From Cyclobacterium sp. SYSU L10401 (lineage in GTDB: Bacteria; Bacteroidota; Bacteroidia; Cytophagales; Cyclobacteriaceae), in the NCBI RefSeq assembly GCF_010993705.1, contig NZ_WOFO01000002.1:62001-126000 (forward strand): a DNA stretch of 64,000 bases, written 5' to 3'. Of the stretch, positions 4,392-40,891 are shown one piece after another. The notes under the pieces were generated by a model. The model ran no database searches, was not told the origin of the DNA, and saw nothing but the letters and a program-made list of their open reading frames with translations. A program made the position numbers and the translations under genes. Positions within the stretch are counted from its first letter, which is position 1. Every line of letters starts with the position of its first letter.

Positions 4392-4421
4392 TTACACAAG
4401 CGTAAGCAACCCACGCTTCCA

Positions 4422-5231: not shown

Positions 5232-5243
5232 AAGTTTATCGGT

Positions 5244-8114: not shown

Positions 8115-8162
8115 AGCTTACAAGGATAGAATACTGTTATGAGCGGTAATAAACGAACCATA

Positions 8163-9710: not shown

Positions 9711-9769
9711 AAACTAAACAATCAGAATTTACTGAAGGTATATCCAAGCAGCTCATTGATGGTGAAATT

Positions 9770-9823
9770 ACGCATCATAACCCTATTTTTGCTACCGGGA
9801 AAACCAATAAGGTTATGATGCGT
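9770..9823. repeat. Perfect 13-bp inverted repeat between susD and sulfatase
   Basis: ACGCATCATAACC at 9770-9782 is exactly reverse-complementary to 9811-9823, with 28 nt between. A second, smaller hairpin (GGCAA/TTGCC) sits at 9835-9852. No clear T-run follows on the minus strand, so this is not a standard intrinsic terminator. In PUL operons, stem-loops after susD are commonly thought to protect the susCD mRNA or reduce downstream expression. That role is inferred here. Confidence 0.7.
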
Positions 9824-9875
9824 ACGCTAAAATCGGCAAGCTCAATTTTGCCTTTTAAAGAATCATTGAGGCGAT

Positions 9876-11600: not shown

Positions 11601-11612
11601 GGTGTTTTCTGG

Positions 11613-14600
11613 TTAAAAGGTTAGACTGGCTCCGAAAGTATAGGCTCTGGCAATTGGGAAAAATGCCCCGGAACTACCGTTAGGAGTTAGTGGGTTGGTC
11701 CCTTTCGGGAGCCTGTTAAAATTGGCCAGATTTTGGATCGAGGTGTACACCCGTAAACTCCTTGCTTTTAATCTATCCTTTAAGGTGGGGAAGTTATACC
11801 CCAAACTTAAATTTCGAATGGCCAGGTAGGATGCGTCAAATACCCACACATCGGAAGCTCTCGCATCATTGCTACCTGAGCTTGTAGGCGCAAGTACTGG
11901 AATCCTGGCATTTTGCCTCTCAGGAGTCCAGGATTCTTCCACATGCCATTCTTGCACCTTCCCCGCATTCCACAAGGGCATAATGGCATCACCTTGCAAT
12001 AACAAATCCCTTTTTCCTACCCCTTGAAACATCAACGCAAAATCAAAGCCTTTGTAATCCGCCGTCAGGTTTAATGCATAACTATACCGGGGAAATGGAT
12101 CTCCGATAATAACCCGATCATCGGGGTTAATGACCTCGTCTGAGGAATCATTCATCCCGTCGCCGTTAGTATCCAAGGTAGGTTGATCCACATACCTGAT
12201 GTTTCCTGGAATAAGCCCCCCAAATTGATTGGGAGCATTGTCGATTTCTTCCTGATTCTGAAAATACCCCATGGATTGGTACCCAAATATAGAACCAATA
12301 GGACTTCCTGTGGTGGTAATCGAGTTTCCACTTATTATCTGTCCCAAGCCACCCAAATTGGTCACCTCATTTTTCACGTCGGAAAAATTGAAGTTCGCAC
12401 TGTAATTAAACTGTCCGATCGCATCCCTCCAATTGATATTGAAATCAACCCCTCTATTTTCGACAGAACCTACGTTTTGAAGGGGAGCACTCAATCCCAC
12501 TACTCTGGGGACAGGCAAGGCCAATAAAATATCATTGGTAGTCCGGACATAATATTCAACCGAAAAGGTTAACTGGTTATTAATCAAGCCCGCATCCAAT
12601 CCGATATTTGCAGTTTCCGCTGACTCCCATCGAATTCCTCGGTTGGCCAATACATTTTGTGCAGCACCTGTAGCTACGTTATCGCCGAAAATAAAATTCG
12701 ATGCCCCCAAAAGAATGTTGGCGGTATACGGGAAATCATTACCAATAGTCCGGATATTCTGGCTACCAATCTGTTGATTACCCAATCGACCCCAGGAAGC
12801 TCGCAATTTAAATTCCGAAAAGAAATCTAAGGGACTGAAAAATGCTTCTTCAGTCAAACGCCAGCCTGCAGAAAATGAAGGGAATATGGATACCCGATTT
12901 TCCGGTGCAAATCTTGAGGAAGCATCTCTTCGTACGTTAGCCTCAAAAAGGTATTTGTCCAAATAGGAATAGTTAAATCGGGAAAAATAGGAAACCAAAC
13001 TGGAATGCGTAGCACTTCCATTATTTCTCATGTTGGTCTCTGCACCCGCATTCAACTGTTCGAAACGATCGATGATAAAATCAGTCCTGGAAGCACCAAA
13101 TTGCATCCAATTGGTCTTAATCATTTCGTAACCGCCAAGTATCGTAAATTGGTGGTCTGTGATGGATTTGCTGTAGGTAATTAGACCGATGAGGTTGTTC
13201 TCGAATATTCTGGTATTGGTATTGCTGAGTGAATTTCTATCGGGTACATTTCTGGTTGACTTTGAGTCCCAATCCAGAATTGTTGTATACATCTTATTGA
13301 AGTTACGATCGAAAAGATCTCTATACTCTGGAGAATAAGTAAGACTTACATTTAGGTCTTTCACCGGCGAATAATTTACCCGCATCAGCCCTCTAAAATA
13401 ATTGTTTTCATTTCGGTTTAGTCCCCCGTCTGTGGCGTGCGCAATGGGATTTTGACCACTCCAACCATCACCCCAAGACCCATCAGTATGTATGGCAACT
13501 TGTGTAGGGTCAATTCTAAAGGCATCCAGAAAAACCCTGTCCAAACCCGAATTGGGCTGGGAAGTCAACTCCTGACTAAAATTCAAATCAAATGTCAGGT
13601 CGAATTTATCGTTAATCTTGATATCCGAATTGAATCGGCCATTATATCGCTTGAAATTGTAATTCTTTACATTGGCCCCCTGATCCGTATAGGAGATAGA
13701 TCCCATTAGCTGAACGTTTTCTGTTCCACCATTTACGGTGAGGTTATGGTATTGCTGGAATCCATTTTCTGAAAACAGCAAATCCATCCAATCGGTATCC
13801 GGATAAATGTCGGGGTTTGTCGCCATGTTCTGCTCGTAATTGGCAATGGCGGCTTCGTCCGTATTAGTCACTCTTAAAAAATCAATCGCGCCCAAATAAG
13901 ACGGTAACGTTTGAGGTTCCTGCCAACCGGCATAGGTATTGTAGGAAACCGTCATCGCTCCCACTTTCCCGCGCTTCGTGGTCACAAGTATGACTCCGTT
14001 GGATCCCCTCGACCCATAAATTGCAGATGCCGCTGCATCCTTCAGGACCGAAATACTTTCAATATCAGCTGGGTCAATGTTATTTATATCCCCTTGAATC
14101 CCGTCTACAAGTACTAAAGGATCATTAGACGCACCGAGAGACCCAATACCCCTTACCCGTAAGGTAGCACCATCCGCTCCCGGACGGCTGCTGGACTGGA
14201 TAGCAGTCAATCCTGGTGTCATACCAACCAAAGCCTGAGAAGCCTGGAATACCGGTTGTCGCGAAATAGCAGCTCCATCTATGGATTCTACCGAGCCTGT
14301 TAAATTGATTCTCCGCTGGTCTCCGTATCCGACTACCACCACTTCACTAAGATCACTCATATCTGGATCTAAATTGACATCAATGGAACGTTGGTTACCA
14401 ACGGTAATCTCTTGTTTAAAATACCCCAAAAAGGAATATACTAATACCGAATTACTGCTCGGCACCTCGATTTGATACCTTCCATCCAAATCTGTCACCG
14501 TACCTGAACTGGAATTCTTTATCAAAATACTGACCCCTGGCAAGGGAGACTCATTTTCGTCGAAGACAGTACCGCTGACCGTGATAGATTGGGCCATGGA

Positions 14601-14657
14601 ACTGGTCGCAACGACCATTAGGACCAATACAAATAAACTTGGTAAGATTTTTTTCAT
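11613..14657 (-). CDS. susC: SusC/RagA-family TonB-dependent outer-membrane transporter
   Basis: A 1014-residue protein. It has a signal peptide (residues 1-22, TSSMAQ), then a carboxypeptidase-regulatory-like domain (SGTVFDENESPLPGVSILIK). A TonB-box/plug region follows, with SEVVVVGYGDQRR, GATLRVRGIGSL, PLVLVDGI and SAIYGSRGSNGVILVTTKRG. The rest is a 22-strand-type beta-barrel ending in an aromatic C-terminus (FGASLTF). It imports oligosaccharides with SusD using TonB energy. It is the first gene of the operon running to the left edge. About 125 nt upstream lies a palindrome matching one upstream of the lacI-type gene at 25550, so LacI-type control is likely. There is no N-terminal STN domain, arguing against anti-sigma/ECF signalling through this receptor. 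Confidence 0.97.
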   Translation of the reverse strand: MKKILPSLFVLVLMVVATSSMAQSITVSGTVFDENESPLPGVSILIKNSSSGTVTDLDGRYQIEVPSSNSVLVYSFLGYFKQEITVGNQRSIDVNLDPDMSDLSEVVVVGYGDQRRINLTGSVESIDGAAISRQPVFQASQALVGMTPGLTAIQSSSRPGADGATLRVRGIGSLGASNDPLVLVDGIQGDINNIDPADIESISVLKDAAASAIYGSRGSNGVILVTTKRGKVGAMTVSYNTYAGWQEPQTLPSYLGAIDFLRVTNTDEAAIANYEQNMATNPDIYPDTDWMDLLFSENGFQQYHNLTVNGGTENVQLMGSISYTDQGANVKNYNFKRYNGRFNSDIKINDKFDLTFDLNFSQELTSQPNSGLDRVFLDAFRIDPTQVAIHTDGSWGDGWSGQNPIAHATDGGLNRNENNYFRGLMRVNYSPVKDLNVSLTYSPEYRDLFDRNFNKMYTTILDWDSKSTRNVPDRNSLSNTNTRIFENNLIGLITYSKSITDHQFTILGGYEMIKTNWMQFGASRTDFIIDRFEQLNAGAETNMRNNGSATHSSLVSYFSRFNYSYLDKYLFEANVRRDASSRFAPENRVSIFPSFSAGWRLTEEAFFSPLDFFSEFKLRASWGRLGNQQIGSQNIRTIGNDFPYTANILLGASNFIFGDNVATGAAQNVLANRGIRWESAETANIGLDAGLINNQLTFSVEYYVRTTNDILLALPVPRVVGLSAPLQNVGSVENRGVDFNINWRDAIGQFNYSANFNFSDVKNEVTNLGGLGQIISGNSITTTGSPIGSIFGYQSMGYFQNQEEIDNAPNQFGGLIPGNIRYVDQPTLDTNGDGMNDSSDEVINPDDRVIIGDPFPRYSYALNLTADYKGFDFALMFQGVGKRDLLLQGDAIMPLWNAGKVQEWHVEESWTPERQNARIPVLAPTSSGSNDARASDVWVFDASYLAIRNLSLGYNFPTLKDRLKARSLRVYTSIQNLANFNRLPKGTNPLTPNGSSGAFFPIARAYTFGASLTF

Positions 14658-14783
14658 TGTTACGGTTATTTTGGCGAAACATTGTTAATCTTTCTGCATA
14701 CACAGAATATCTATCAATACTATATATAAAAACCGTAATAAAAAAGGCATTATTTATAAAATTAAGGAATTTTATTCCGTAAT

Positions 14784-14799
14784 CGTTACCGATAACGTT
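14784..14799 (-). promoter_or_regulatory. Putative LacI-family operator upstream of susC
   Basis: On the minus strand this reads AACGTTATCGGTAACG. It matches plus-strand 25379-25394 upstream of the lacI-type gene at 15 of 16 positions. The core CGTTATCGGTAACG is a near-palindrome with a central CG, typical of LacI-family operators. A second copy of the half motif CGATAACGT is at 14845-14853 on the plus strand. The site lies 127-142 nt before the susC start. A -7-like element (TAGTATTG, minus strand, 14715-14722) lies between; its assignment is weak. Confidence 0.6.
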
Positions 14800-14886
14800 T
14801 ACATATAAAAATTTAATAAAAAATCAGCGTTATTTTTAATAATTCGATAACGTGAGCTGGTAATCCAGGCAAAAGAAAAAACGCAT

Positions 14887-29968: not shown

Positions 29969-30184
29969 ATGGAAACTATAAGAATCGACATATTGAACCC
30001 CAAGGCTAAAGCTCTTTTAAAAGATTTGGCAAATCTAGAGTTGATAAGGATCAGGAAAGAAAAACCAACTACAGATTTTTTTGAATTACTTAAAAAATTC
30101 CGAAGTAAAGCAGATAAAGTTCCTAGTCTGGAAGAAATCACATTAGAGGTTGAGGCAGTTCGCAAAGCCCGTTATGAAAAATAA
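29969..30184 (+). CDS. Putative antitoxin of a PIN toxin-antitoxin pair
   Basis: A 71-residue acidic/basic protein starting METIRIDILNPKAKALLKDLANL. The C-terminal half (FRSKADKVPSLEEITLEVEAVRKARYEK) fits the wrapping tail of small antitoxins. The gene ends inside the start of the PIN-domain gene (11-nt overlap), the usual translationally coupled antitoxin-toxin order. No ribbon-helix-helix motif is obvious, so DNA binding is uncertain. Confidence 0.8.
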   Translation: METIRIDILNPKAKALLKDLANLELIRIRKEKPTTDFFELLKKFRSKADKVPSLEEITLEVEAVRKARYEK

Positions 30185-30581
30185 AAGGGTTATTTTAGAT
30201 ACAAACCTTTGGATTAGTTTTTTAATTTCTAAAAGACAGCAGGAGTTGGATTTACTTCTTGAATCTGGTACTATAATCCTTATTTTTTCTGCTGAATTGC
30301 TTGAAGAATTTCTAGAAGTTTCAAATCGACCCAAATTCAAGAAATTCTTTAAAAAATCCGATATTGAAGACTTACTACGTCAAATTGACAGCGTCGGAGA
30401 ATTTGTAAAAGTGAAGACCAAAGTGGATAAATGCAGAGACCAAAAGGATAATTTTTTATTAAGTCTATCTATAGATGGCAAGGCAGATTTCTTAATAACA
30501 GGTGACACAGATTTATTAGTGTTGGGTAAATTAAAGCAAACCCAAATAGTTTCATGGTCTGAATTTATTTCAAAAGTATGA
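30174..30581 (+). CDS. PIN-domain toxin (VapC-like putative RNase)
   Basis: The ATG at 30174 overlaps the antitoxin gene and gives 135 residues. The alternative frame start at 30150 would deepen the overlap. The four PIN acidic positions are visible: Asp in ILDTNLWISFLIS, Glu in AELLEEFLEV, Asp in CRDQKDNFLLSL, and Asp in FLITGDTDLLVLG. The domain matches COG1569-type PIN toxins, Mg-dependent endoribonucleases. Composition of the pair is AT-rich against its neighbours. It forms an accessory module between the glycan locus and the peptide/propeller locus. Confidence 0.9.
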   Translation: MKNKRVILDTNLWISFLISKRQQELDLLLESGTIILIFSAELLEEFLEVSNRPKFKKFFKKSDIEDLLRQIDSVGEFVKVKTKVDKCRDQKDNFLLSLSIDGKADFLITGDTDLLVLGKLKQTQIVSWSEFISKV

Positions 30582-30989: not shown

Positions 30990-31160
30990 ATGAGTAATAA
31001 AGTCAAAACTAGACAAGAAATAGCCGATGAATATGGCGTTTCTACAAAAACTCTTTCTCGTTGGCTTAAAAAGAAAAACCTTGACATTTCAAGTGGGTTT
31101 GTAACACCAAAAGAACAAAATCAAATCTACGAAGTATTTGGGGAACCCCCAAAAAAGTAA
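30990..31160 (+). CDS. Small helix-turn-helix protein
   Basis: From the ATG at 30990 the frame encodes 56 residues. It contains KTRQEIADEYGVSTKTLSRW, a Fis/transposase-type helix-turn-helix, and ends in GEPPKK. An earlier ATG at 30975 would add five residues. The upstream in-frame sequence is low-complexity (Ile/Phe) and unlikely to be coding. Similar stand-alone HTH proteins accompany mobile or accessory DNA in Bacteroidota. It might be an orphan repressor or a fragment of a transposase-like protein. No partner gene is adjacent. Confidence 0.6.
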   Translation: MSNKVKTRQEIADEYGVSTKTLSRWLKKKNLDISSGFVTPKEQNQIYEVFGEPPKK

Positions 31161-31177: not shown

Positions 31178-32836
31178 CTAACCTTTTTCACAAAAAAACT
31201 TAATGATGGAACCTACAGCATGCTCCGTATTTTCGGATTTAATAAACCAATGCCCTTCATTGGGATAACTTATCCAATTCACATTTTTATTTCCCGAATA
31301 TTCTATTCTTTTTACGCTTTCTGAAAAACTCACTATAGGATCATTTTCTCCCAATATATGAATTTGGGGTACCCGACCGATATACCGTTCTGAAGCAGGC
31401 ATACCAAACAGGGAAGCAGTGGCTTTCACAATTCCAAAATTCTCTTCCACTACGTGTTCCATTAGTATATTCCCTGAACTTGCCGCAAGGGTATATATGG
31501 GAATTCCTTTATTTTCTTTCGAAAGATGGTGTAACCATTGGATCATATCCTCCTTTCCTTCCGAGAAATCAGCTTTGTTAAATTTCTTTCCGAATCCAAA
31601 AGACATGGGGTAATTGGGCGCAATAATTCGATATCCATTATTGGTGAGATTAGCTAAAACAGGGTCCCACCTGGGGGAAAAGTCACTGTGCAAGCCGGGA
31701 TGGAAATAAAGAATCACTCCCTGAAGGCTGGAAGCATCAGGAGGTTGAAATTCGTATGCCGAGGAAAGCTCCTCTGAAGCCGGTAAATATCGATAATCAA
31801 TCGTTAAGTCCAGCATATTATCGGCAACACTGTAAATAGACCTATTTGCCAAATCGTAAATATAAAGAGATTTGGGAACCCAAAAATCAGTATATACCAT
31901 GATCAATTGGTTATTTCCGGAAAAGGAATAATCATACACTACTCCTCTTTTAGTAATTGATTCAATTTCTCCGGTTTTCAGATTTTTTCTTTTCAAAAAA
32001 TACTCTCCGGCAGCTACTTCCATATAGAATAGGTCATCCCCCTTTCTTTTTGGTAACTTAACATCAAGCCCGGCATCAAGGATTAGAATAGGATCTGCCT
32101 CAGGAAGTTTCAAATTAATGGCATAAATTTTAAAAAATTCCCCTCCTTCATTGCTAGCAAAGTAAACCAAATCATTAAACAGGAAGGGATTGAGTTTATG
32201 ACCATCACTGTTCCGGAACAATGATCGAAAAATATCTCCCTCCTTTTCTATAAAAAGAAGTTGATCATCAGCATTAATAACAAAATAATTTCCTTCTTCT
32301 GAGAATTCCACGTGGTGAAGTTGATTTACCCTTGGAAGTAGAATGCTCCTTTCTTCATTTTGAAGGTCCAATAGATACAAGGTAGGGTCATCCCGCATTT
32401 GCACTACTACTAAATTACCATTTCGAAAAGAGAAAACTGATCGAACCTTATTTGATTCGGGAAAAAAATTTTCAAAAAGCTCATCTGAAGCCCTCCACTT
32501 TTCATTCCCATCTTTATCCTGAAGTGCCGTTATTTTTCCATCAAACAGAAAGGGAAAACGCTGATATTTAAACGAATCAAGCTTATGGGTATGCTCCCCG
32601 TCAAAACGATGTAAAGAAAAGGATTGACCACTATTGGCTGAAAAAATAACATCTCCGTCATCAAGGACCAGAAATCGGGTGTCTGTTTCCATTGCAACAG
32701 CAATAAAAGGTCGAATTTCAATATTGCACTCCACTGCCGTTCTACTGCACCCAAAAAATAAAAAACCTATCGCTAACCATATTACCATGGAAGCCAAATT
32801 CCCTTTTAGAAATTGAATTCTGTTGATATTTCTCAA
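31178..32836 (-). CDS. S9-like alpha/beta-hydrolase lipoprotein with propeller-like N-terminus
   Basis: A 552-residue protein. The first codon is TTG (32834-32836), preceded by GGAGAG. It yields a signal peptide with lipobox FFGC (Cys30); the next ATG at 32788 would give an unusually short signal. Residues 40-350 are beta-rich like the propeller of S9 peptidases. The C-terminal alpha/beta hydrolase has VILYFHPGLHSDFSPRWDP, a nucleophile elbow TLAASSGNILMEH, a charge-relay Asp in ILGENDPIV and His in NEGHWFIK. The elbow reads A-x-S-x-G rather than G-x-S-x-G, so the catalytic Ser assignment is less certain. It is the last gene of the peptide/propeller unit. It may process the exported peptide; this is inference. 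Confidence 0.75.
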   Translation of the reverse strand: MRNINRIQFLKGNLASMVIWLAIGFLFFGCSRTAVECNIEIRPFIAVAMETDTRFLVLDDGDVIFSANSGQSFSLHRFDGEHTHKLDSFKYQRFPFLFDGKITALQDKDGNEKWRASDELFENFFPESNKVRSVFSFRNGNLVVVQMRDDPTLYLLDLQNEERSILLPRVNQLHHVEFSEEGNYFVINADDQLLFIEKEGDIFRSLFRNSDGHKLNPFLFNDLVYFASNEGGEFFKIYAINLKLPEADPILILDAGLDVKLPKRKGDDLFYMEVAAGEYFLKRKNLKTGEIESITKRGVVYDYSFSGNNQLIMVYTDFWVPKSLYIYDLANRSIYSVADNMLDLTIDYRYLPASEELSSAYEFQPPDASSLQGVILYFHPGLHSDFSPRWDPVLANLTNNGYRIIAPNYPMSFGFGKKFNKADFSEGKEDMIQWLHHLSKENKGIPIYTLAASSGNILMEHVVEENFGIVKATASLFGMPASERYIGRVPQIHILGENDPIVSFSESVKRIEYSGNKNVNWISYPNEGHWFIKSENTEHAVGSIIKFFCEKG

Positions 32837-32848
32837 TTTAGTTTGTTT

Positions 32849-33862
32849 TTACTCTCTCCAATACCTTTTAAAATCCCTCCACTCATTTTCGTCAGTTGCC
32901 CAGTCACTATAAATCGAGATTCCGTCAACCAGTCGATTTATAGTATCTACTTGAATTACGCTTTGTTTGATGGTCTTTAGGGTATTAGGAATACTTTCTA
33001 TCTTAAGGTTGCGGTATTCCTGGATCTCTGGTACATTCAAGAAGGTTCCCACCGCTATAAGATATTGTATATCCCTGCTATTTTTCAGTGTCTGAATATC
33101 ACGGATTAGCGCTTCACAGTTGTCCTCGAAAAGCCTTTGGTCGTGAAGGTGTGTATCGAAATACAAAAAAGAAAGCTGGTCTACATATTTGATCAGGGTG
33201 TGAAGTTCATCCATGCTGGTTTTTCTTTTCCAGGGCCGGGTTTCCGGGGAAGTAGCTACAACAACAGAGGAAACAAATGCCTTTGGCAATCGCCCCCGAA
33301 GTTTTCTGTGAAATTCATTTACATTATGTCCATAGGTTTCCAAATCCCCTGGCTTTTCCGGATTAACTGTATTTTCCAAATAGGGATTGCCTGATAAAAT
33401 AAACTCAAAGTCCACATGGATTCCGGGAACTTCCAATACCTCTATTAATCTTTCCGTATCCTCCAGGGCATTCGCAACCCATAGGGAATCCCCCAGGTAA
33501 ACAGACTTGTTTTGCAAGCCTCCGATCCAGGGCAAAATTATCAATTCCGGATATAGCTTTTGAATTAAATTTACAGAGTTGATAGCCGTCTCTGAGAAAG
33601 CATATTCAGGAAGTCGACCATCCATACCAAAAGGGCCTGAGAAAATATAGGCATACTTTATATCATTTTCCTCCATAGTCCGAGCATAGTCATGAATATG
33701 CTCTTGGGTAAGTTTCTCCCCTGTAGAAGGCTTGTGACCACGAAAATAGATACTCTCCGTCCAAATTGCATTTTCCTGGCCAAATAAACCGTCAGGATAT
33801 CTTTCCTCAGGTTTACACCCAATTATTACAATTAAAATGGTAAAAATAAAAAAACGATTCAT
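32849..33862 (-). CDS. TIM-barrel-like lipoprotein, possibly glycoside-hydrolase-18-related
   Basis: A 337-residue lipoprotein (MNRFFIFTILIVIIGC, Cys16). Segments such as ILPWIGGLQNKSVYLGD, EVPGIHVDFEFILSG and YVDQLSFLYFDTHLHD follow the beta-strand order of GH18-type barrels. The HVDFEF position corresponds to the DxxDxDxE strand of chitinases, but only part of that motif is present (VDFE). It may therefore be an inactive or divergent glycan-binding barrel. It lies 5 nt from the O-antigen-ligase-like gene and 12 nt from the S9-like gene, so all three are almost surely co-transcribed. The exact function was not recognised. Confidence 0.65.
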   Translation of the reverse strand: MNRFFIFTILIVIIGCKPEERYPDGLFGQENAIWTESIYFRGHKPSTGEKLTQEHIHDYARTMEENDIKYAYIFSGPFGMDGRLPEYAFSETAINSVNLIQKLYPELIILPWIGGLQNKSVYLGDSLWVANALEDTERLIEVLEVPGIHVDFEFILSGNPYLENTVNPEKPGDLETYGHNVNEFHRKLRGRLPKAFVSSVVVATSPETRPWKRKTSMDELHTLIKYVDQLSFLYFDTHLHDQRLFEDNCEALIRDIQTLKNSRDIQYLIAVGTFLNVPEIQEYRNLKIESIPNTLKTIKQSVIQVDTINRLVDGISIYSDWATDENEWRDFKRYWRE

Positions 33863-33867
33863 GGCAA

Positions 33868-35739
33868 TTATAAATTATCAGGCTCAAATTTGGTCCATCT
33901 CCCCGGTATTCGTTCCAGTAAATCTTGTATCTCTGTTTTTATTTCCTCTACTGCACGGGAGGGTATTTTTGGTTCTTTTTCTAACAATCGGTGGGCAAGT
34001 GGCTCCATCTTATCCCAGGCTCCGGTGGACGCATATAATTTTACCAACAAGTATCGGGGATAAAAACGGTCCGGAAGCATCTCTGCAGCTAATTGATAGG
34101 CAGTTTCTGCCTGTTCATTCTTTCCTAAAGCCATATAACTATCTCCCAAAGTAGTTTGTATTACTGTATTACCCAGGTATTTCTTTGCTGACTCCAGTAT
34201 AAAAATGGCCTCTTTATGTTTTCCAGCCATTGAAAGTGCCTTTCCATAATTGGTGAGAAATTCCCCGTTATGGTCAAACATGGGTAAAGCCTTTTCATAA
34301 CCATCAACTGCCGGTGCAAATGCCCCCCCGTGATATAAACTATAGGCATAATTCCACTCCTTTACAGCCTTATAAAGGCTATTTGATGTCACAAACGCTA
34401 TCATCGCAACGAAAAAAGCCAATAAAACAAAAATACCTTTGACTGTTTTCCCATATTGATCTACCTTCCAATCAACTAAAATCTGACTTCTGCCAGCCAA
34501 AATAGCCAGATAGAAAATGCCACAAATTTTTATAGACAATATATGGGAGGGGTAAGAAAACATACCAAAAACCAATATGGATACCAGGCCTGCCTGCGCT
34601 ATCAAGATTTCCGGATTTTCCAATGACCCCCGTATTTTAAAAACAGCAAAAAGCAATATTAGAACCAATCCTAATCCAAAAAGCCCTTGTTCCACCATAA
34701 GCTGGACCCCCTCATTAAAAGCATAGACCACGTCATCAGCCAGGGAAGCCGCCGGATCATTCGGATTGCCGCGAAACCAGGCCGCCTGTGATTCCATATA
34801 GCCAGCCTGAAAACGATCAAATCCCAACCCGGTCAATGGGTTTTCCCGGATCATTTCCCAGGATGCTTTCCAGATTAATGTTCTCCCATCGGCAGAGTCC
34901 TTTTTCAAATAATAAAGACCTGTTCCCACTCCAACTACTATGGCCAGGCCAAGCAAAATCCCAATTGTTCTTTTAATTGGAGTATCTAAAGCCTCTAGAA
35001 ATCTCCTATTCCAGCGAAATCGGAAAAACATTAAAAAACCTCCAGAGATAACTAAAGCTATCCAGGCAGCCCTTGATGCGCTTACCGAAAGTACCAATAT
35101 CACACCCAGCGCAGTTACGATAGCAGTAATTTTAATCAAATCCCGGAAAGGAGTAATATCATCACGTTTCCACTGATCAATAAAAAAATAGAGCCCAAGA
35201 GCAATTGGAAATACAGCAGTAAGATAACCTGAATAAGGTCCGGGATTAAAAAAACTACCTGTGATAGGGAAATTTATATTCAATGAGGGATAGAAATTGT
35301 AAAGCTGAAGCTCTCCATATATAATCTGAATCAATCCTCCAATAACTAAAAAAGCAGAAAATAAAATCAGACTTTTTGAGTCAATCAGTCTTACAGCTAA
35401 ATAAAGGAAGATTAGTGCACCAAAATCATATAAGCGATAGTTTACGGATAGGTGTTGTTGAAATATGGTGCTGTTTATTAAAACAAATAAAACTAAAATC
35501 GCAATAACACCATCACTTAGAGATAGTTTAAACAAAAAATTCGAATCCTTCTTAAAAAGAAAAATAACTAAATAAAGAACTGCTATTATGGATATTGAAA
35601 ATAGCAGAAAAAGAGTTTTTCCCAAAGATTTACTCCCGACAGGTATGTCAATACCAAAAGTAAAACTTGGAAGTATCATAAAAATAATACAGAATACAAT
35701 ATAAATACTCCATAGGGAATACTTAACGGGCATATTCAT
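33868..35739 (-). CDS. O-antigen-ligase-like (Wzy_C) polytopic membrane protein with C-terminal TPRs
   Basis: A 623-residue protein. About ten or eleven hydrophobic segments cover residues 8-440. The Wzy_C/WaaL signature region is present: DGRTLIWKASWEMIRENPLTGLGFDRFQAGYMESQAAW, followed by an EGVQLMVEQGLFGLGLVL segment. Residues 450-610 have TPR-like helices (WNYAYSLYHGGAFAPAVDGYEKAL, GEFLTNYGKALSMAGKHKEAIF, GDSYMALGKNEQAETAYQLA). Family members transfer lipid-linked glycans to acceptors such as lipid A or, in oligosaccharyltransferases, proteins. Standing between the thioredoxin-like lipoprotein (5 nt) and the TIM-barrel lipoprotein (5 nt), it is not in a capsule cluster. This suggests a dedicated acceptor, possibly the neighbouring peptide (inference). 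Confidence 0.85.
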   Translation of the reverse strand: MNMPVKYSLWSIYIVFCIIFMILPSFTFGIDIPVGSKSLGKTLFLLFSISIIAVLYLVIFLFKKDSNFLFKLSLSDGVIAILVLFVLINSTIFQQHLSVNYRLYDFGALIFLYLAVRLIDSKSLILFSAFLVIGGLIQIIYGELQLYNFYPSLNINFPITGSFFNPGPYSGYLTAVFPIALGLYFFIDQWKRDDITPFRDLIKITAIVTALGVILVLSVSASRAAWIALVISGGFLMFFRFRWNRRFLEALDTPIKRTIGILLGLAIVVGVGTGLYYLKKDSADGRTLIWKASWEMIRENPLTGLGFDRFQAGYMESQAAWFRGNPNDPAASLADDVVYAFNEGVQLMVEQGLFGLGLVLILLFAVFKIRGSLENPEILIAQAGLVSILVFGMFSYPSHILSIKICGIFYLAILAGRSQILVDWKVDQYGKTVKGIFVLLAFFVAMIAFVTSNSLYKAVKEWNYAYSLYHGGAFAPAVDGYEKALPMFDHNGEFLTNYGKALSMAGKHKEAIFILESAKKYLGNTVIQTTLGDSYMALGKNEQAETAYQLAAEMLPDRFYPRYLLVKLYASTGAWDKMEPLAHRLLEKEPKIPSRAVEEIKTEIQDLLERIPGRWTKFEPDNL

Positions 35740-35744
35740 TCTGA

Positions 35745-36221
35745 TTAAATTTCCAAATGGTTCAATAATTTTTCAACAAAATCAGGCACCTCTTGTACTG
35801 CTACATTTCCATCCTCAATTATCGTGTTACCCTTTATCAGATAAAATGAAGGGCTATTCATCACCATTTGATGTTTCCAAAATGAATAATTCCCATCCCT
35901 ATGGAGAAAAAAGCCTGAAAGGTCTAAATCAGTTGCGACTTGATCAATTAGTTTAAAGGACTTTGCCGTAAGGACTAACTGAACTCTGGATTTATGTCTT
36001 TTTTCTATTCGAGAAAGCTGCTGTAAGGCTGATATGGAGCAAGAAGAACAGGCATTTTCCAAAGGAACAATTATCACTGCACCAACCTCGCCTAAATCCC
36101 TATCCGGAAGTAATGATTCCAATTTGGAAAATATTTCGCTATCGCCATCCTTTTTTTGACAGGATGAAACGATAACAAAAAAACATATAGCGTATAAAAC
36201 AAAATTTCTTTGAGTTTTCAT
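35745..36221 (-). CDS. Thioredoxin-like lipoprotein with CxxC motif
   Basis: A 158-residue lipoprotein (lipobox IVSSC, Cys21). The body has a thioredoxin-like strand/helix layout, with VGAVIIVPLENACSSCSISALQQL carrying Cys58-Ser-Ser-Cys61 at the active-site position. A cis-Pro-type segment is present in MNSPSFYLIKGNTIIEDG. The start codon overlaps the stop of the upstream DUF4221-like gene (ATGA, 4 nt), so the two are translationally coupled. It could form or isomerise disulfides in the four-cysteine peptides encoded upstream. It is related in spirit to TlpA proteins but shorter and divergent. Confidence 0.78.
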   Translation of the reverse strand: MKTQRNFVLYAICFFVIVSSCQKKDGDSEIFSKLESLLPDRDLGEVGAVIIVPLENACSSCSISALQQLSRIEKRHKSRVQLVLTAKSFKLIDQVATDLDLSGFFLHRDGNYSFWKHQMVMNSPSFYLIKGNTIIEDGNVAVQEVPDFVEKLLNHLEI

Positions 36222-37411
36222 AACTCCTCCGGTTTAAACCCTACAAACACCATCTGGTCCTCTGAGGGATTGTTATCAGGGTGGTTTAGGGAGAGGTACA
36301 GCTTGCCATCATGGGTGAAGTTCATCCGGGTATAAATCGTATTGATGGGGAGATCTACCTCTCCTACTTTCTCAAAGTCGCTATTTATCATGATAACAGA
36401 AGGCTGTTTATTGTCCCAATTTCGCCGTTGTCCATCAGGTCCAATATAGTCCACACCACGGTAAGCCAGTCGGTAGAGCATCTGGTTAAAGTCGTCAGAT
36501 ACTACTTCCCGATACGAATTGGATGTAATGTAGAATTTTTCATGTAAATCCGAAGTTGATTTTGGTTCATCCATTGGAAATACGTCACCAAAATACTTAC
36601 TTCCGGCTTTCCTTTCCATCATATCCTCTTTTTCCAAGTCGTATATTAATATATTGTTGTAAAAAGTTATTCCAAGAACGAGGTAACGATCATCCATCAA
36701 CACGTGGGAGCCATGACAGAAATGAGAACCATGGATATAACTGTCAAAATGAGAAGGTAACTTAAATATATGGTTATTTGATCCGTCTTTTTTTGTTGAT
36801 GTCTGTAAAAACATCGTTCCTGACCATATACCAGGTCCATTGTAATCCGTGTCTACCCTGGTAAATACGTAGGCATCCTGTTTATCCTTGTCAATTACCA
36901 GAGGTTGGTTTGAATAGTAAATCTGTACATAAGGTTTATCAATTCTCTCAGGATTATCTGTTTTTATCGTCCGTTTGAGGTTTCCATCAAAATCTGTTAC
37001 ATAGAGTCGAATCCTATAGGTACTTGCTATAAGTAGGGTAGAGTCTGAAATAACTTCAAAGGCCTTAAGCTGTCCTACAGCATTTGGTCCATCAAGTTGG
37101 AATCGAACGTTGAAGTCATCTTCCTTTTCAGAAAGTGCATAAAACTCCAGTTCATTGGTGTTTTCATTGACTACTCCAAGATAAGGAGTGCTGTTGATCT
37201 CCACTTTTTTAATATACTTGCTATACACATTTGACCTATATCCTATAGGTATGGTCAAGGTATCTGCAGGAACTAACGTCATTTTTGAACTAAAATCCCT
37301 TGGATTGGGATCCAAGTCATGCTTTTTTTGGCAGGAAATCAAAATAGAAAACAAAACCGAATAATATATTATTCTTTCAATCATAATAAAAGCTAATATA
37401 TCCGTAAACAT
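36218..37411 (-). CDS. DUF4221-like beta-propeller lipoprotein, copy 1
   Basis: A 397-residue protein (388 if the ATG at 37384 is used) with lipobox SILISC (Cys27). DPNPRDFSSKMTLVPADT and YRSNVYSKYIKKVEI follow. Blade-like repeats run through the body. The C-terminus GKLYLSLNHPDNNPSEDQMV, ending GFKPEEL, is almost identical in all three copies. The family matches DUF4221 proteins abundant in Cyclobacteriaceae (recognised by eye, not by search). It lies 39 nt downstream of peptide gene 1 and overlaps the thioredoxin-like gene. It is probably a surface or periplasmic binding partner of the peptide. Confidence 0.85.
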   Translation of the reverse strand: MFTDILAFIMIERIIYYSVLFSILISCQKKHDLDPNPRDFSSKMTLVPADTLTIPIGYRSNVYSKYIKKVEINSTPYLGVVNENTNELEFYALSEKEDDFNVRFQLDGPNAVGQLKAFEVISDSTLLIASTYRIRLYVTDFDGNLKRTIKTDNPERIDKPYVQIYYSNQPLVIDKDKQDAYVFTRVDTDYNGPGIWSGTMFLQTSTKKDGSNNHIFKLPSHFDSYIHGSHFCHGSHVLMDDRYLVLGITFYNNILIYDLEKEDMMERKAGSKYFGDVFPMDEPKSTSDLHEKFYITSNSYREVVSDDFNQMLYRLAYRGVDYIGPDGQRRNWDNKQPSVIMINSDFEKVGEVDLPINTIYTRMNFTHDGKLYLSLNHPDNNPSEDQMVFVGFKPEEL

Positions 37412-37450
37412 GGCTCAGCATGTTTACGGATATTTGTTGAAAAATTTTTA

Positions 37451-37705
37451 TTAACAAATTTTCGGATCTGAGACCATACAATTACCCGATCCACTACAGC
37501 AATCACTACCATTATCCCAGTTCCAATTATGCCCGGTTTCACTTTGGGCATTGGCGGTGTTGCTCAAATTTGATAAGGTAAGGGAGGGCAATACATTTCC
37601 CTTCTCAAAATCCAAACCAACCATTACATTCAGCGTCAGCATCAGCCCGAACGCTCCGGCAGCAGTCCATCGCAGCCATTTGCTTGTTTTTACTACATTT
37701 TTCAT
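37451..37705 (-). CDS. NVEALA-like cysteine-rich exported peptide, copy 1
   Basis: An 84-residue protein. The basic N-terminus (MKNVVKTSKWLRW) is followed by a hydrophobic segment (residues 13-31), then TLSNLSNTANAQ at the position where NVEALA-family peptides carry their signature. The tail DNGSDCCSGSGNCMVSDPKI ends in Cys84; the cysteines are at 69, 70, 76 and 84. Cleavage after ANA would release a roughly 30-residue peptide with four cysteines. The first 64 residues are nearly identical to copy 2; differences concentrate just before the cysteines. The conserved direct repeats lie upstream at 37787-37821. Confidence 0.85.
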   Translation of the reverse strand: MKNVVKTSKWLRWTAAGAFGLMLTLNVMVGLDFEKGNVLPSLTLSNLSNTANAQSETGHNWNWDNGSDCCSGSGNCMVSDPKIC

Positions 37706-37786
37706 AATAATACCTGTTTAAAATGTTAGAAATTTAATAATAATTAAAAGTATAGCTATTATTCCGTAAAAAATAGGTCAAAAAAA

Positions 37787-37821
37787 GACAGTTTCGGACA
37801 TTTATAGACAAAACCGGACAT
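37787..37821 (-). promoter_or_regulatory. Pair of 15-bp direct repeats upstream of peptide gene 1
   Basis: On the plus strand GACAGTTTCGGACAT (37787-37801) and GACAAAACCGGACAT (37807-37821) are spaced exactly 20 bp, about two helical turns. The same pair precedes peptide gene 2. They sit about 85-115 nt before the start codon, suitable for an activator. A weak -33/-7 pair (TTTTTTTGACC, TATACTTTT on the minus strand) lies between. The regulator is unknown. Confidence 0.55.
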
Positions 37822-37858
37822 TATCTTTAAATGGCCTTTATTCATCTTATTTATTTAT

Positions 37859-37941
37859 GGGTGTAGTTTGCAACTACATCCCAGGTATCTCATTGGTTTT
37901 GTAAACGAGGCATTTATAATGCCGGATACCAAAGATCAACC
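37859..37941. repeat. Extragenic double-hairpin repeat, copy A
   Basis: It contains the palindromes TGTAGTTTGCAACTACA and GGCATTTATAATGCC, the latter enclosed by GGTATC/GGATACC arms. Related copies lie at 39603-39678 and 46126-46208. It sits just downstream of DUF4221 copy 2 and may end its transcript. Confidence 0.7.
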
Positions 37942-37960
37942 TTATATAAAATCATCATTT

Positions 37961-39148
37961 TCACAACTCCTCCGGTTTAAATCCTACAAACACCATCTGG
38001 TCTTCTGAGGGATTGTTATCAGGGTGGTTTAGGGAAAGGTACAGCTTGCCATCATGGGTGAAGTACATGCGGGTATAGATCGTATTAAGGGGCAGGTCTA
38101 CCTCTCCTACTTTCTCAAAGTCACGATTGATCATGATCACGGAAGGTGGTTTATTGTCCCAATTTCTCCGTTGTCCATCCGGTCCGATATAGTCCACTCC
38201 TTGATATGCCAAGCGATAGAGCATTTGATTTTCCTCATCAAAGGCCAGCTCACGATAAGAATTGGAAGGAACATAAAAACTTTCGCTGAAGCCACTTTCG
38301 GCATCATCCCATGGCAGTGCATCCCCAAAGTGCTTGCTTCCTGCCTCCTTTTCCATCAGTTCCTCCTTTTCCAGGTCGTAAACCAATATGTTATTGTAAA
38401 ATGGAATTCCAAACACTATAAAACGATCTTCCATAAGCAGATGGGAACTGTGACTAAAATAGGCACCATGCACATACCCAAAGAAATGGTCTGGAAGCTC
38501 GAACACATGGCTGGCCGCTTCATCCTCCAAATCCGGTATCTTTAAAAACATGGTACCAGACCATATGCCTGGACCATTGTAATCAGTGTCTACTCCAGTA
38601 TATATATATAGGTCTTTCTTGCTTTGATTATTTACTAATGGCTGATTGGTATAATAATTCTGAACAAAGGGATACCCTTTCCTTTCTACAATATCTGTTT
38701 TTAATATTTTAACAATGTCCCCCTCAAAATTTGTAACATATAAACGAATCCGGTAGGTACTTCCTATCAGGAGGGTATCATCAGAAATCAATTCAAATGC
38801 CATCAATTTACCTACTCCATTCGGACCATCTGTTTTGAATTGGACTTTAAAATCTTCGACCTCATTAGAAAGTGAATAAAACTCCAATTCATTCGTATTT
38901 CCATTGACTACACCCAAGTAGGGAACTCCGCTAATCACTACCTTTTTAATGTATCTACTGTAAACATTGGATTGGTTGCCTATGGAAAAAATTAATGTAT
39001 CTGTTGGAATTAATGTCATCGACGGGTTAAAGTCTCTAGGCAAAGGATCTAAATTGTTTGCTTCTTTACAGGAAATTATAAAAATTAACAAAATAGAAAA
39101 TAATAAAAGTATTCTAATCATAGTGAAACTGATTAAACCCTTAACCAT
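37961..39148 (-). CDS. DUF4221-like beta-propeller lipoprotein, copy 2
   Basis: A 395-residue lipoprotein (IFIISC, Cys27; alternative ATG near residue 10). The sequence follows copies 1 and 3 throughout: DPLPRDFNPSMTLIPTDT, GNQSNVYSRYIKKVVI, YNGPGIWSGTMF, a HSSHLLMEDR segment, and the shared C-terminal 80 residues. It is preceded 46 nt upstream by peptide gene 2 and followed by a double-hairpin repeat. Divergence from its sisters is greatest in the N-terminal half, as expected if each copy pairs with a different ligand. Confidence 0.85.
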   Translation of the reverse strand: MVKGLISFTMIRILLLFSILLIFIISCKEANNLDPLPRDFNPSMTLIPTDTLIFSIGNQSNVYSRYIKKVVISGVPYLGVVNGNTNELEFYSLSNEVEDFKVQFKTDGPNGVGKLMAFELISDDTLLIGSTYRIRLYVTNFEGDIVKILKTDIVERKGYPFVQNYYTNQPLVNNQSKKDLYIYTGVDTDYNGPGIWSGTMFLKIPDLEDEAASHVFELPDHFFGYVHGAYFSHSSHLLMEDRFIVFGIPFYNNILVYDLEKEELMEKEAGSKHFGDALPWDDAESGFSESFYVPSNSYRELAFDEENQMLYRLAYQGVDYIGPDGQRRNWDNKPPSVIMINRDFEKVGEVDLPLNTIYTRMYFTHDGKLYLSLNHPDNNPSEDQMVFVGFKPEEL

Positions 39149-39194
39149 GGATAATCATAGTTAAGGGAGTTGGATGACAAATTTCATTAATTTT

Positions 39195-39449
39195 TTAGCA
39201 AATTTTCGGATCAGAAACCATACAATTACCTGATCCGTAGCAGCAGTTAATACCATTGTCCTCATTCCAATTGTGACCGGTTTCACTTTGGGCATTGGCG
39301 GTGTTGCTCAAGCTTGATAAGGTTATGGAGGGCAATACATTTCCCTTCTCAAAATCCAAACCAACCATTACATTCAGCGTCAGCATCAGCCCGAACGCTC
39401 CGGCAGCAGTCCATCGCAGCCATTTGCTTGTTTTTACTACATTTTTCAT
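39195..39449 (-). CDS. NVEALA-like cysteine-rich exported peptide, copy 2
   Basis: 84 residues. Compared with copy 1 it differs at only a handful of positions: SITLSSLSN for SLTLSNLSN, and NWNEDNGINCCYGSGNC for NWNWDNGSDCCSGSGNC. The four cysteines (69, 70, 76, 84) and the final MVSDPKIC are conserved. Upstream it has the same direct-repeat pair (39531-39565). Downstream, after 46 nt, lies DUF4221 copy 2. The product should be exported across the inner membrane and trimmed at ANAQ. Confidence 0.85.
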   Translation of the reverse strand: MKNVVKTSKWLRWTAAGAFGLMLTLNVMVGLDFEKGNVLPSITLSSLSNTANAQSETGHNWNEDNGINCCYGSGNCMVSDPKIC

Positions 39450-39530
39450 AATAATACCTGTTTAAAATGTTATAAAATTTATGATATTTAAAAGTATAGC
39501 TATTATTCCGTAAAAAATAGGTCAAAAAAA

Positions 39531-39565
39531 GACAGTTTCGGACATCTATAGACAAAACCGGACAT
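39531..39565 (-). promoter_or_regulatory. Pair of 15-bp direct repeats upstream of peptide gene 2
   Basis: GACAGTTTCGGACAT (39531-39545) and GACAAAACCGGACAT (39551-39565) are identical to the pair upstream of peptide gene 1 and have the same 20-bp period. No such pair precedes DUF4221 copy 3. Confidence 0.55.
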
Positions 39566-39602
39566 TATCTTTAAATGGCCTTTTTTCATCTTATTTATTT
39601 AT

Positions 39603-39678
39603 GGGTGAAACTACATCCCAGGTATCTCATTGGTTTCGTATACGAGGCATTTATAATGCCGGATACCAATGATCAACC
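39603..39678. repeat. Extragenic double-hairpin repeat, copy B
   Basis: A shortened relative of the repeat at 37859-37941. The first palindrome has lost its left arm; GGCATTTATAATGCC with GGTATC/GGATACC arms is retained. Downstream of DUF4221 copy 3. Confidence 0.65.
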
Positions 39679-39697
39679 GTATATAAAATCATTATTT

Positions 39698-40891
39698 TCA
39701 TAACTCCTCCGGTTTAAACCCTACAAACACCATCTGGTCTTCCGATGGATTGTTATCGGGATGGTTTAGGGAAAGGTACAGCTTACCGTCATGGGTAAAG
39801 TACATGCGGGTATAGATGGTATTGACTGGGAGATCTACCTCTCCTATCTTCTCAAAGTCGCTATTGATAATAATTACAGATGGGGGTTTATTGTCCCAGT
39901 TGCGCCTTTGTCCATCCGGTCCGATATAATCCACTCCTTGGTAAGCCAGCCGATAGAGGAGTTGGTTTTCTTTATCATAGGCAATCTCTCTGTAGGAGTT
40001 GGAAGGAACGTAGAAGCTTTCGCTCATACCACTCACTGCATTATCCCAAGGAAGAGCGTCTCCAAAGTGTTTGCTTCCTGCTGGTTTTTCAATCAGTTCT
40101 TCCGTCTCTAGGTCATATATCAGGATATCATTGTAAAAGGGTATCGCCAAAACCAGATAACGGTCGTCCATCAACAGATGGGAACTGTGGGTAAAATAGG
40201 CGCCGTGCACATATTTGCCTAAATGGGAAGGCAGTTCGAATATGTGTCTGGCTGATTCATCATCCAGTTCGGGAATCTTCAGAAACACAGTTCCCGTCCA
40301 TTTCCCTGGAAAGTTAACATCGGTATCCGCCCGTGCAAGTACGAACAAATCATTTTTTTTCCTATTAAACATCAAAGGCTGGTAGGTATAGTATAGCTGA
40401 ACAAACGGAAGGCCTTTACGCTCTATAATATCTGTTTTTAAGGTTTTTTGTAGGTTACCCTCCAAATCAGTGACATATAAACGGATCCGTAGGGAGCTTC
40501 CGATAAGCAGCGTACTGTCTGAGATAAGTTCAAAACCCCTGATCGAGCCCACCCCGTTCGGTCCTTCCGCCTGAAATGGAATCTTGAAGTCTTCTTTTCT
40601 TTTGGTTAAGGAATAAAACTCCAGTTCATTGGTGTTTTCATTGACTACTCCCAGGAAAGGGACGCCATTAATCTCACATTTCTTGATGTACTTGCTGTAA
40701 ACATTCGAGCGGTACCCAATGGGGATTCTCAGGGTATCTGAGGGAAGCAGGGTCATGCGTGCTGTATAATCCCGGGGCAAGGGATTAAGGGACTGGTCCT
40801 TGGTGCAGGAGTTTCCCAATGCCATCAGAATTAACCCAAACAGCATTAAGGTTCTATTTTTATTTTCCAAATAGCCGGAGAAGCGTTCCAT
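39698..40891 (-). CDS. DUF4221-like beta-propeller lipoprotein, copy 3
   Basis: A 397-residue protein with a lipobox-like ALGNSC (Cys29). LNPLPRDYTARMTLLPSDT, YRSNVYSKYIKKCEI, LGKYVHGAYFTHSSHLLMDDRYLVLAI and the shared C-terminus ending GFKPEEL place it with copies 1 and 2. Unlike them it has no peptide gene or direct-repeat pair upstream; its 5' flank is the 740-nt intergenic region. Either its peptide gene was lost or it serves the same peptides. It is first in the array in the direction of transcription. Confidence 0.85.
   Translation of the reverse strand: MERFSGYLENKNRTLMLFGLILMALGNSCTKDQSLNPLPRDYTARMTLLPSDTLRIPIGYRSNVYSKYIKKCEINGVPFLGVVNENTNELEFYSLTKRKEDFKIPFQAEGPNGVGSIRGFELISDSTLLIGSSLRIRLYVTDLEGNLQKTLKTDIIERKGLPFVQLYYTYQPLMFNRKKNDLFVLARADTDVNFPGKWTGTVFLKIPELDDESARHIFELPSHLGKYVHGAYFTHSSHLLMDDRYLVLAIPFYNDILIYDLETEELIEKPAGSKHFGDALPWDNAVSGMSESFYVPSNSYREIAYDKENQLLYRLAYQGVDYIGPDGQRRNWDNKPPSVIIINSDFEKIGEVDLPVNTIYTRMYFTHDGKLYLSLNHPDNNPSEDQMVFVGFKPEEL

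Follow-up and report, generated by a model that had tools for sequence, protein, structure and literature searches.

The stretch of DNA analysed here, 64,000 nucleotides from Cyclobacterium sp. SYSU L10401 (contig NZ_WOFO01000002.1, positions 62,001 to 126,000; C12:62001-126000 in our numbering of the 5.9 Mb genome, G000) and referred to throughout as the window, carries on its minus strand a compact cluster of nine genes in the order DUF4221-1, peptide 1, DUF4221-2, peptide 2, DUF4221-3, CxxC, Wzy_C/TPR, GH18-like and S9-like, in which two cysteine-rich peptide precursors are interleaved with three propeller lipoproteins. An earlier sequence-only reading had proposed that these nine open reading frames (ORFs), all of which we located where it had placed them, form an undescribed system for exporting, modifying and binding a peptide. 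We lean, with slightly better than even confidence, towards the interpretation that the locus combines a peptide-propeller cassette with a block of accessory genes for envelope modification. That it represents a recurrent peptide system is partly supported by our analyses, its role lying among those of an antagonist, a signal and a surface factor.

Support comes from the recurrence of the neighborhood. At E <= 1e-15, 12 of 345 genomes of the phylum, the genome of the window included, contain a relative of the Wzy_C/TPR protein; in the two best outside matches (G409 and G220) one recognizes by eye a Cys-rich precursor directly downstream, with propeller-like and CxxC proteins nearby. A contig pattern scan returned 287 relatives, of which the best 80 were kept, corresponding to 79 loci (L053-L131). 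Nearly all of these carry names of Bacteroidota; the exceptions are labelled Balneolaceae (L055), Patescibacteria (L079) and Rickettsiales (L126), the last two being possibly misbinned. Clustering of the 855 ORFs by blast identified signal peptidase I in 43 of the 79 loci, three propeller clusters in 37, 35 and 15, an RND adaptor in 36, an RND pump in 35, a TolC-like protein in 28, and CxxC proteins (largest cluster) in 33. As controls we used, with 13-20 kb around each, the 40 best-scoring of the PF04932 places found in 47 of 61 genomes, after leaving out 4 already met in the search of the phylum.

Co-occurrence was counted only in loci of at least 14 kb (59 of 79). A propeller is present in 54 of these, a peptide in 48, a CxxC protein in 45, a transglutaminase-like protein in 41, LepB in 35, an RND adaptor in 32, RND in 31, a TolC-like protein in 26, and a family that we labelled REG in 15; among the 40 controls, one has a TolC-like gene (L140) and every other feature scores zero. 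Peptide, propeller and CxxC occur together in 39 of 59 loci versus 0 of 40 controls. The Wzy_C model itself matches five controls, as expected for a shared domain, and those five are without any other feature. When each half of the loci was scored with models built from the other half, the numbers out of 59 were 48 for the peptide, 52 for the propeller (two/four models), 33 for CxxC (one/three models), 41 for the transglutaminase-like protein, 35 for LepB and 31 for RND, with no matches in the controls bar a single propeller match with one split; the peptide counts of the first comparison and of the pairing below are those of an iterative model, and the members used in split training were also picked by the first models. 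Overall, the contrast between relatives and controls is plain.

Peptide and propeller are paired: outside the window, the gene next to a peptide encodes a propeller in 83 of 103 cases, at a median gap of 79 bp, while the remaining peptides are followed by another gene (7), the end of the locus (5), CxxC (4), Wzy_C (2) or a transglutaminase-like gene (2). The layout recurs across the phylum, human gut bacteria included. As an example, Phocaeicola vulgatus ATCC 8482 (L129, NC_009614.1:78920-100398) has on one strand peptide, CxxC, peptide, propeller, transglutaminase-like and LepB genes, continuing 1.4 kb further on with Wzy_C/TPR, RND adaptor, RND, TolC and RND. Both of its peptides are NVEALA-like. 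Such a locus may already be present in a tractable laboratory strain, Bacteroides thetaiotaomicron, judged from gene annotations: a table in PMC10434189 lists, close together, BT0662 (O-antigen ligase family), BT0663 (hypothetical), BT0664 (6-bladed beta-propeller), BT0667 (signal peptidase I) and BT0669 (RND adaptor). The second values in the rows for BT0662, BT0664, BT0667 and BT0669 in the iron-dependent expression tables of that source are 0.11-0.35; taken as P values, they indicate no clear effect of iron on these four genes, and in the accessible part of the paper BT0662-BT0669 are not treated as a system.

The features of the locus in the window, numbered from its first nucleotide, are as follows.

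30990..31157, plus strand: small HTH-type (helix-turn-helix, by eye) DNA-binding protein, 56 residues if counted from the probable start Met; runs towards the hydrolase gene (convergent)
31178..32836, minus strand: S9-like serine hydrolase lipoprotein (PF00326 and motifs); an internal ATG near 32791 is a possible start
32849..33862, minus strand: GH18-like TIM-barrel lipoprotein, so assigned through a 54% identical relative in L064; D151-x-E153
33868..35739, minus strand: membrane protein of the WaaL fold with a Wzy_C domain and C-terminal TPRs; R223 and R286 conserved, F341 in the place of the catalytic His
35745..36221, minus strand: lipoprotein with a CSSC sequence motif (58-61), possibly thioredoxin-like
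36218..37411, minus strand: DUF4221 propeller lipoprotein 3 (PF13970, E 1.2e-14); probable start at ATG 37384
37398..37433, minus strand: 15-bp hairpin in the interval between peptide 2 and DUF4221-3 (z -4.3)
37451..37705, minus strand: peptide precursor 2, 84 residues; predicted mature part Q54-C84, after ANA53
37787..37821, minus strand: tandem TGTC repeats of 10-bp period upstream of peptide 2 (pattern scan)
37961..39148, minus strand: DUF4221 propeller lipoprotein 2 (PF13970, E 1.7e-20); probable start at ATG 39121
39138..39167, minus strand: 12-bp hairpin in the interval between peptide 1 and DUF4221-2 (z -3.3)
39195..39449, minus strand: peptide precursor 1, 84 residues; Cys 69, 70, 76 and 84, leader nearly equal to that of peptide 2
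39531..39565, minus strand: tandem TGTC repeats of 10-bp period upstream of peptide 1 (pattern scan)
39698..40891, minus strand: DUF4221 propeller lipoprotein 1 (PF13970, E 1.2e-23); no upstream peptide ORF seen in the ORF list

The tight spacing described earlier holds: the CxxC gene overlaps DUF4221-3 by 4 bp, and the gaps that follow are of 5, 5 and 12 bp. The listed starts of DUF4221-2 and DUF4221-3 overlap the hairpins; the ATGs at 39121 and 37384, which lie just before the lipoprotein signal, are likelier starts. The small HTH gene, the TGTC repeats before both peptides and the hairpin between each peptide and its propeller are additions to the sequence-only reading. Beyond the HTH gene, a 143-residue ORF that looks by eye like a PIN-domain protein follows a small ORF (window 29969-30581), and positions 30206-30526 have no counterpart in the same-genus locus L216.

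Which of these genes belong together can be judged from the family. A profile of the window-type peptide (A6, E <= 1e-4) matches 12 of 196 family genomes, own included, three of them (G095, G138, G545) with broken fragments only. Of 14 stretches fetched, 11 contain an intact peptide and 3 (L224-L226) do not; these stretches are not independent, as L214 and L215 lie on one contig, whose genome contributed to the profile, and L221 with L227, like L222 with L223, come from one genome per pair. The core homologues are not found mostly apart: a propeller adjoins the peptide in 10 of the 11, and in the other one, L223, the contig breaks off. The Wzy_C/TPR gene is present in four (L214, L215, L219, L221), absent from five whole stretches (L216, L217, L218, L220, L227), and the remaining two (L222, L223) are on cut contigs. 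Of the unity claimed for the whole gene set, the peptide-propeller pairing and a non-random co-occurrence with CxxC and Wzy_C/TPR stand, while Wzy_C/TPR, GH18-like and S9-like behave as accessory genes. In the same-genus genome G067 (L216) the match to the window breaks off at 30834 and resumes at 35863: this locus lacks the HTH, S9-like, GH18-like and Wzy_C/TPR genes together with the 3' end of the CxxC gene, and encodes a CxxC protein of 124 residues versus 158. Loss of the block in G067 is the simpler reading and, since peptide and propeller are kept there, the pair can persist without the block. A core of peptide and propeller with accessory enzymes is partly supported by these gene comparisons. 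As a side observation, in L218 (G108, 10382-14836) a window-type peptide and propeller stand beside genes that look by eye TolC-, HlyD- and ABC-like, a possible alternative export route.

Both precursors have the 84 residues and the C-C-x5-C-x7-C tail reported earlier (Cys 69, 70, 76, 84), with 93% identity between the copies, and a protein search of the whole genome (E <= 1) returns only these two. The claim that they are exported gains from a leader that looks exported, with an ANA|Q end and an even number of Cys: in both the leader is predicted to end at ANA53|Q54, leaving a mature part of 31 residues. Between the two copies, 2 of 53 codons differ in the leader and 13 of 31 in the tail, where 9 changes are synonymous and 4 non-synonymous (P about 0.001 for the synonymous excess, assuming that a quarter of changes are synonymous). 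These mainly synonymous tail changes, together with leader-type profile matches in other family genomes, make the peptides look truly coding. G067 has a single peptide, which shares its entire leader protein sequence with peptide 2. The leader is conserved, and the tail changes faster. Nucleotide identity between copies is 95% over the 248 bp upstream, 97.5% in the leader and 82% in the tail, then 65% in the first two thirds of the DUF4221 gene, 82% in its last third and 85-97% in the final 250 bp; the third DUF4221 gene has the same conserved 3' end. Such a pattern, in which the middle has diverged and the flanks have not, suggests gene conversion or an exchange of cassettes.

Over all precursors, AxA closes the leader in 94 of 104, a fraction that is partly built in because the profile seeds were chosen by an AxA-like motif, while A51 and A53 are also invariant among the 7 window-type leaders. 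Q is the commonest residue after it (26 of 94), ahead of N (15) and of S and E (11 each). An even Cys count is found in 83 of the 94 mature parts; counting only sequences with at least two Cys, it is found in 80 of 89 mature parts versus 224 of 358 control small ORFs. According to PMC10653852, most Bacteroidetes signal peptidase I substrates expose Gln, which is cyclised to pyroglutamate.

The Wzy_C/TPR protein was correctly described: it matches Wzy_C with E 8.8e-16, has TPRs in addition, and contains both the Wzy_C domain and the WaaL fold. Its two phosphate-binding arginines, R223 and R286, are present in 88 of 88 members, where R286 sits inside the pattern used for collecting most of these sequences. 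The column of the catalytic His is instead occupied by F341 in the window protein and, among the 88, by Phe in 85, His in 2 and Tyr in 1; of 30 control proteins, the 12 that align at this point all have His (18 gaps). The loss of the catalytic His, though both Arg are kept, makes plain O-antigen ligation or PglL-type glycosylation doubtful, and weakens the proposal that the peptide is glycosylated or ligated by this protein; an ordinary O-antigen ligase role is weakened for the same reason. His is retained in the Wzy_C/TPR proteins of L044 and L045, two loci with dense arrays of Cys-rich precursors and, by eye, propeller-, CxxC- and MauE/DoxX-like proteins. Natural fusions exist: in L055 (91-3618) Wzy_C/TPR is joined to an S9-like hydrolase in a protein of 1175 residues (22.7% over 462 residues, E 7e-15), and in L067 (9752-13708) to a transglutaminase-like protein in one of 1318 residues.

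The assignments of the other proteins are of uneven strength. The thioredoxin-like label of the CxxC protein retains its CSSC motif at 58-61 and loses any family match by Pfam or NCBIfam; hhalign gave at best 9.8% to the CxxC families of the relative loci and a weak 31% to a second CxxC lipoprotein of the same genome (L024), which in turn matches one of those families with 98%. For the TIM-barrel protein, the window sequence has no Pfam match, and the 54% identical relative in L064 matches GH18 (PF00704, E 3e-8); the D151-x-E153 pair is present, and a low-confidence model (pLDDT 53.6, two sequences) gave top Foldseek rows that are mostly GH18 with TM about 0.3-0.45. This gene occurs in 1 of 148 family genomes (its own) and in 2 of 385 phylum genomes (its own and a weak 26% match). 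The S9-like hydrolase has a match barely past the cut-off (PF00326, E 3.2e-5), and compares with PDB entry 5l8s at E 1e-4; its motifs AASSG, GENDP and NEGHW, read against the relatives in L055 and L064, would correspond to S453, D499 and H529. S9 oligopeptidases act on short peptides, and trimming of the peptide by this hydrolase, as the sequence-only reading proposed, is a possible role. In L064, a peptide-propeller-CxxC locus, a GH18-like and an S9-like gene stand together on the opposite strand, about 6 kb away from Wzy_C/TPR. The transglutaminase-like lipoprotein is present in 48 of the 79 relative loci and in 11 of 148 family genomes, and was not found in the genome of the window; this absence, with the fusions of L055 and L067 and the L064 pair, suggests that the S9-like and GH18-like genes may here stand in for it. 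For the partner protein in L129 there is also an F5/8 type C match, weak and under the cut-off (E 0.0035). The window locus gave no Pfam or NCBIfam match to an enzyme family of ribosomally synthesized and post-translationally modified peptides.

The intervals between genes are also patterned. For peptide-propeller gaps of 25-320 bp a hairpin with z < -2 is found in 41 of 56 pairs (median -3.6); of the 124 control gaps, 80 were drawn, and 13 of these reach that value (median -0.2). The two window hairpins, of 12 and 15 bp, differ in sequence, and a hairpin of the same shape but yet another sequence is present in the same-genus relative; of 13 further window-type peptides, 8 have z < -2 within 100 bases past the stop. 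With a hairpin so placed, more peptide than propeller could be made. The TGTC-repeat pattern (<=3 mismatches) has only two sites in the genome, upstream of the two peptides. Within the fetched sequence, about 3.04 Mb with some overlap, arrays of at least 4 TGTC spaced by 10 bp are confined to the regions upstream of window-type peptides in four genomes (G000, G067, G031 and G018). The HTH gene is single-copy in the genome, and its homologues in the fetched loci lie only beside window-type peptides (L054, L219, two in L221, L222); the short loci L176, L190, L201 and L205, which overlap those loci, also carry one. Sigma-70-type promoters show no excess (31 found vs 33.7 expected).

The three DUF4221 assignments are well founded (PF13970, 55.0, 74.3 and 84.6 bits versus a cut-off of 23.4), and the family has further contexts in the same genome. 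Locus L024 (C12:185000-196000; 4559-6356) combines a 68-residue Cys-rich precursor with a DUF4221 and the second CxxC lipoprotein, and no Wzy_C gene was seen by eye within its 11 kb. In L017 (C17:145000-156000; 2508-10625) two double-glycine Cys-rich precursors, which score under the TIGR04149 cut-off, stand beside a DUF4221 gene, with C39-VKOR, C39-ABC exporter, HlyD and LanC-like genes. L017 on the one hand, and L024 and the window on the other, indicate that DUF4221 adjoins exported peptides of two leader types. A further DUF4221 cluster, L016 (C20:174000-193500), has no peptide genes by eye, and one of its DUF4221 genes is broken by stops.

Several observations weigh against the reading of the locus as a peptide-propeller cassette with an accessory block. 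Fisher P values for the co-occurrence overstate the evidence, because the loci have a common ancestry and themselves served at first to train the models. The peptide is absent by profile in 11 of the 59 loci, three of which (L058, L068, L076) hold a similar-looking ORF by eye. Between G067 and the window the tail has 10 amino-acid-changing and 5 silent codons. Of the 21 DUF4221 genes in the genome, 16 lie outside the three peptide loci with no adjoining peptide by eye, so that DUF4221 is not solely a peptide partner. Between 28 and 44 kb, the ORFs of the window showed neither LepB nor RND, hence peptide export here would use general machinery. The window CxxC protein has no match to thioredoxin profiles, and the strict surface-export signal C-X-K-(D/E)2, as given in PMC5080379, is by eye in none of the six window lipoproteins. 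Finally, the transglutaminase label is weak (PF01841, E 0.0055 in L129, below cut-off, and no match in L054), and otherwise draws on Cys and His motifs seen by eye in the alignment.

From gene content, pairing, the leader and tail pattern, and the fold and residues of the Wzy_C protein, the following course of events can be proposed. The hydrophobic leader would take the precursor across the inner membrane by the Sec route, and signal peptidase I would cut after ANA53. By analogy with the substrates of PMC10653852, the exposed Gln may become pyroglutamate, giving a 31-residue peptide whose four Cys would form two disulfides with the help of the CxxC lipoprotein. In the least certain step, limited to species with the block, the WaaL-fold enzyme with its TPR arm might handle the peptide together with a lipid-diphosphate-linked substrate, aided by a partner that acts in acyl transfer or as a peptidase (the transglutaminase-like protein in most relatives, the S9-like one in the window) and, in the window, also by the GH18-like glycosidase. 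The peptide would then exit the cell or remain at the outer membrane, an RND-TolC pump adjoining in many relatives, and, as the pairing suggests, the propeller encoded right after each peptide would bind that peptide as receptor, immunity protein or carrier. A bolder version, which we regard as possible but unlikely, is that a repurposed WaaL-fold enzyme without the acceptor-activating His, working with an acyl-transfer partner (transglutaminase-like or S9-like), matures secreted disulfide peptides throughout the phylum, gut commensals included, joining them by a new chemistry to a lipid-linked glycan or other acceptor, each product being recognized by its own propeller.

The cassette-and-block reading can accommodate more than one function. 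One hypothesis is antagonism: the peptides would be narrow-spectrum, bacteriocin-like toxins shaped by the block, with the propellers as cognate immunity or trap. It is suggested by precursor arrays in which one genome combines one leader with many tails (eight in G043; five in L081), by the succession of precursor gene, hairpin and single downstream partner, by the variable region from peptide tail to propeller body between conserved flanks, and by DUF4221 near a C39-ABC peptide exporter and LanC-like gene. This hypothesis is challenged by the size of propellers, which are usually much bigger than immunity proteins, and by the mostly silent differences between the tails of the two window copies, even if changing codons prevail in the same-genus relative; we give it a modest minority of our confidence. 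In a signalling hypothesis, which we consider rather improbable, the mature peptide would act as a pheromone or as a signal at the surface, the propeller would receive or carry it, and the HTH protein and TGTC repeats would form the response circuit. The confinement of HTH homologues and of TGTC arrays to the neighborhood of window-type peptides is in its favor, as is the REG family, which has a DNA-binding look by eye and is missing from the controls. HTH and array are, however, separable (HTH without array in L219, L221 and L054; array without detected HTH in L216 and L217), and the locus showed neither a sensor kinase nor an uptake gene.

In a third hypothesis, to which we assign a similarly low probability, the product is a surface factor: Wzy_C/TPR would attach the peptide to a glycolipid or polysaccharide for surface display, with the propellers as scaffold. 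In its favor, the WaaL fold and both phosphate-binding Arg are kept, and the GH18-like protein and the F5/8 type C match of L129 point to glycans; against it, the proposed acceptor-activating His is Phe in nearly all members, the same-genus relative has the peptide without the enzyme, and the lipoproteins are without the strict surface-export signal. Chance clustering of unrelated lipoprotein genes might be imagined, since Bacteroidota genomes are rich in lipoproteins and propellers, and it may still hold for the S9-like and GH18-like genes, which were seen together at one other locus (L064). For peptide, propeller, CxxC and Wzy_C/TPR this explanation is disfavored by the co-occurrence versus controls, the pairing and the split training, and overall we consider it very improbable.

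If the cassette-and-block reading is true, Bacteroidota, among them Phocaeicola vulgatus ATCC 8482, make secreted disulfide peptides via a dedicated envelope pathway; families that so far go by a number or a motif (NVEALA, DUF4221, DUF5128-type propellers) would gain a function, and a WaaL-fold enzyme lacking the catalytic His would become available for testing.

These results can be compared with known systems. In the literature searched, from which subscription papers and bioRxiv preprints were mostly outside, there was no paper on NVEALA or DUF4221 and none describing this system. Membership of the window peptides in NVEALA was rejected: PF14055 misses both and no place in the genome exceeds the cut-off, while it matches 14 of 30 peptides from the window and relative loci (E <= 0.05); a leader model built without the window, L053, L054, L044, L045, L024 and L017 left the window peptides unreported at E <= 10. 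An earlier iterative model had reached them (E 4e-5 and 1e-3) with the window among its possible training sequences. The "NVEALA-type" label of the sequence-only reading thus survives as an analogy: the hydrophobic leader ending in AxA, the Cys-rich tail, the short precursor and the adjoining propeller lipoprotein are alike, whereas the profile-profile probability of the window peptide is 10% to NVEALA and 93% to an intermediate leader group. From WaaL and PglL (PF04932) the Wzy_C/TPR family differs in having, in 85 of 88 members, Phe in place of their H338/H349, an extra TPR arm and partner enzymes. The double-glycine C39-ABC clusters (TIGR04149-like), found in the same genome at L017, share with the window Cys-rich exported peptides and a DUF4221 neighbor, but differ in leader type, protease and exporter. 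Finally, the secreted Bacteroidetes proteins that follow the Q rule (PMC10653852) resemble the window peptides in AxA|Q cleavage and in the expected pyroglutamate, whereas the latter are distinguished by a long stretch from hydrophobic core to cleavage site and by a small mature peptide.

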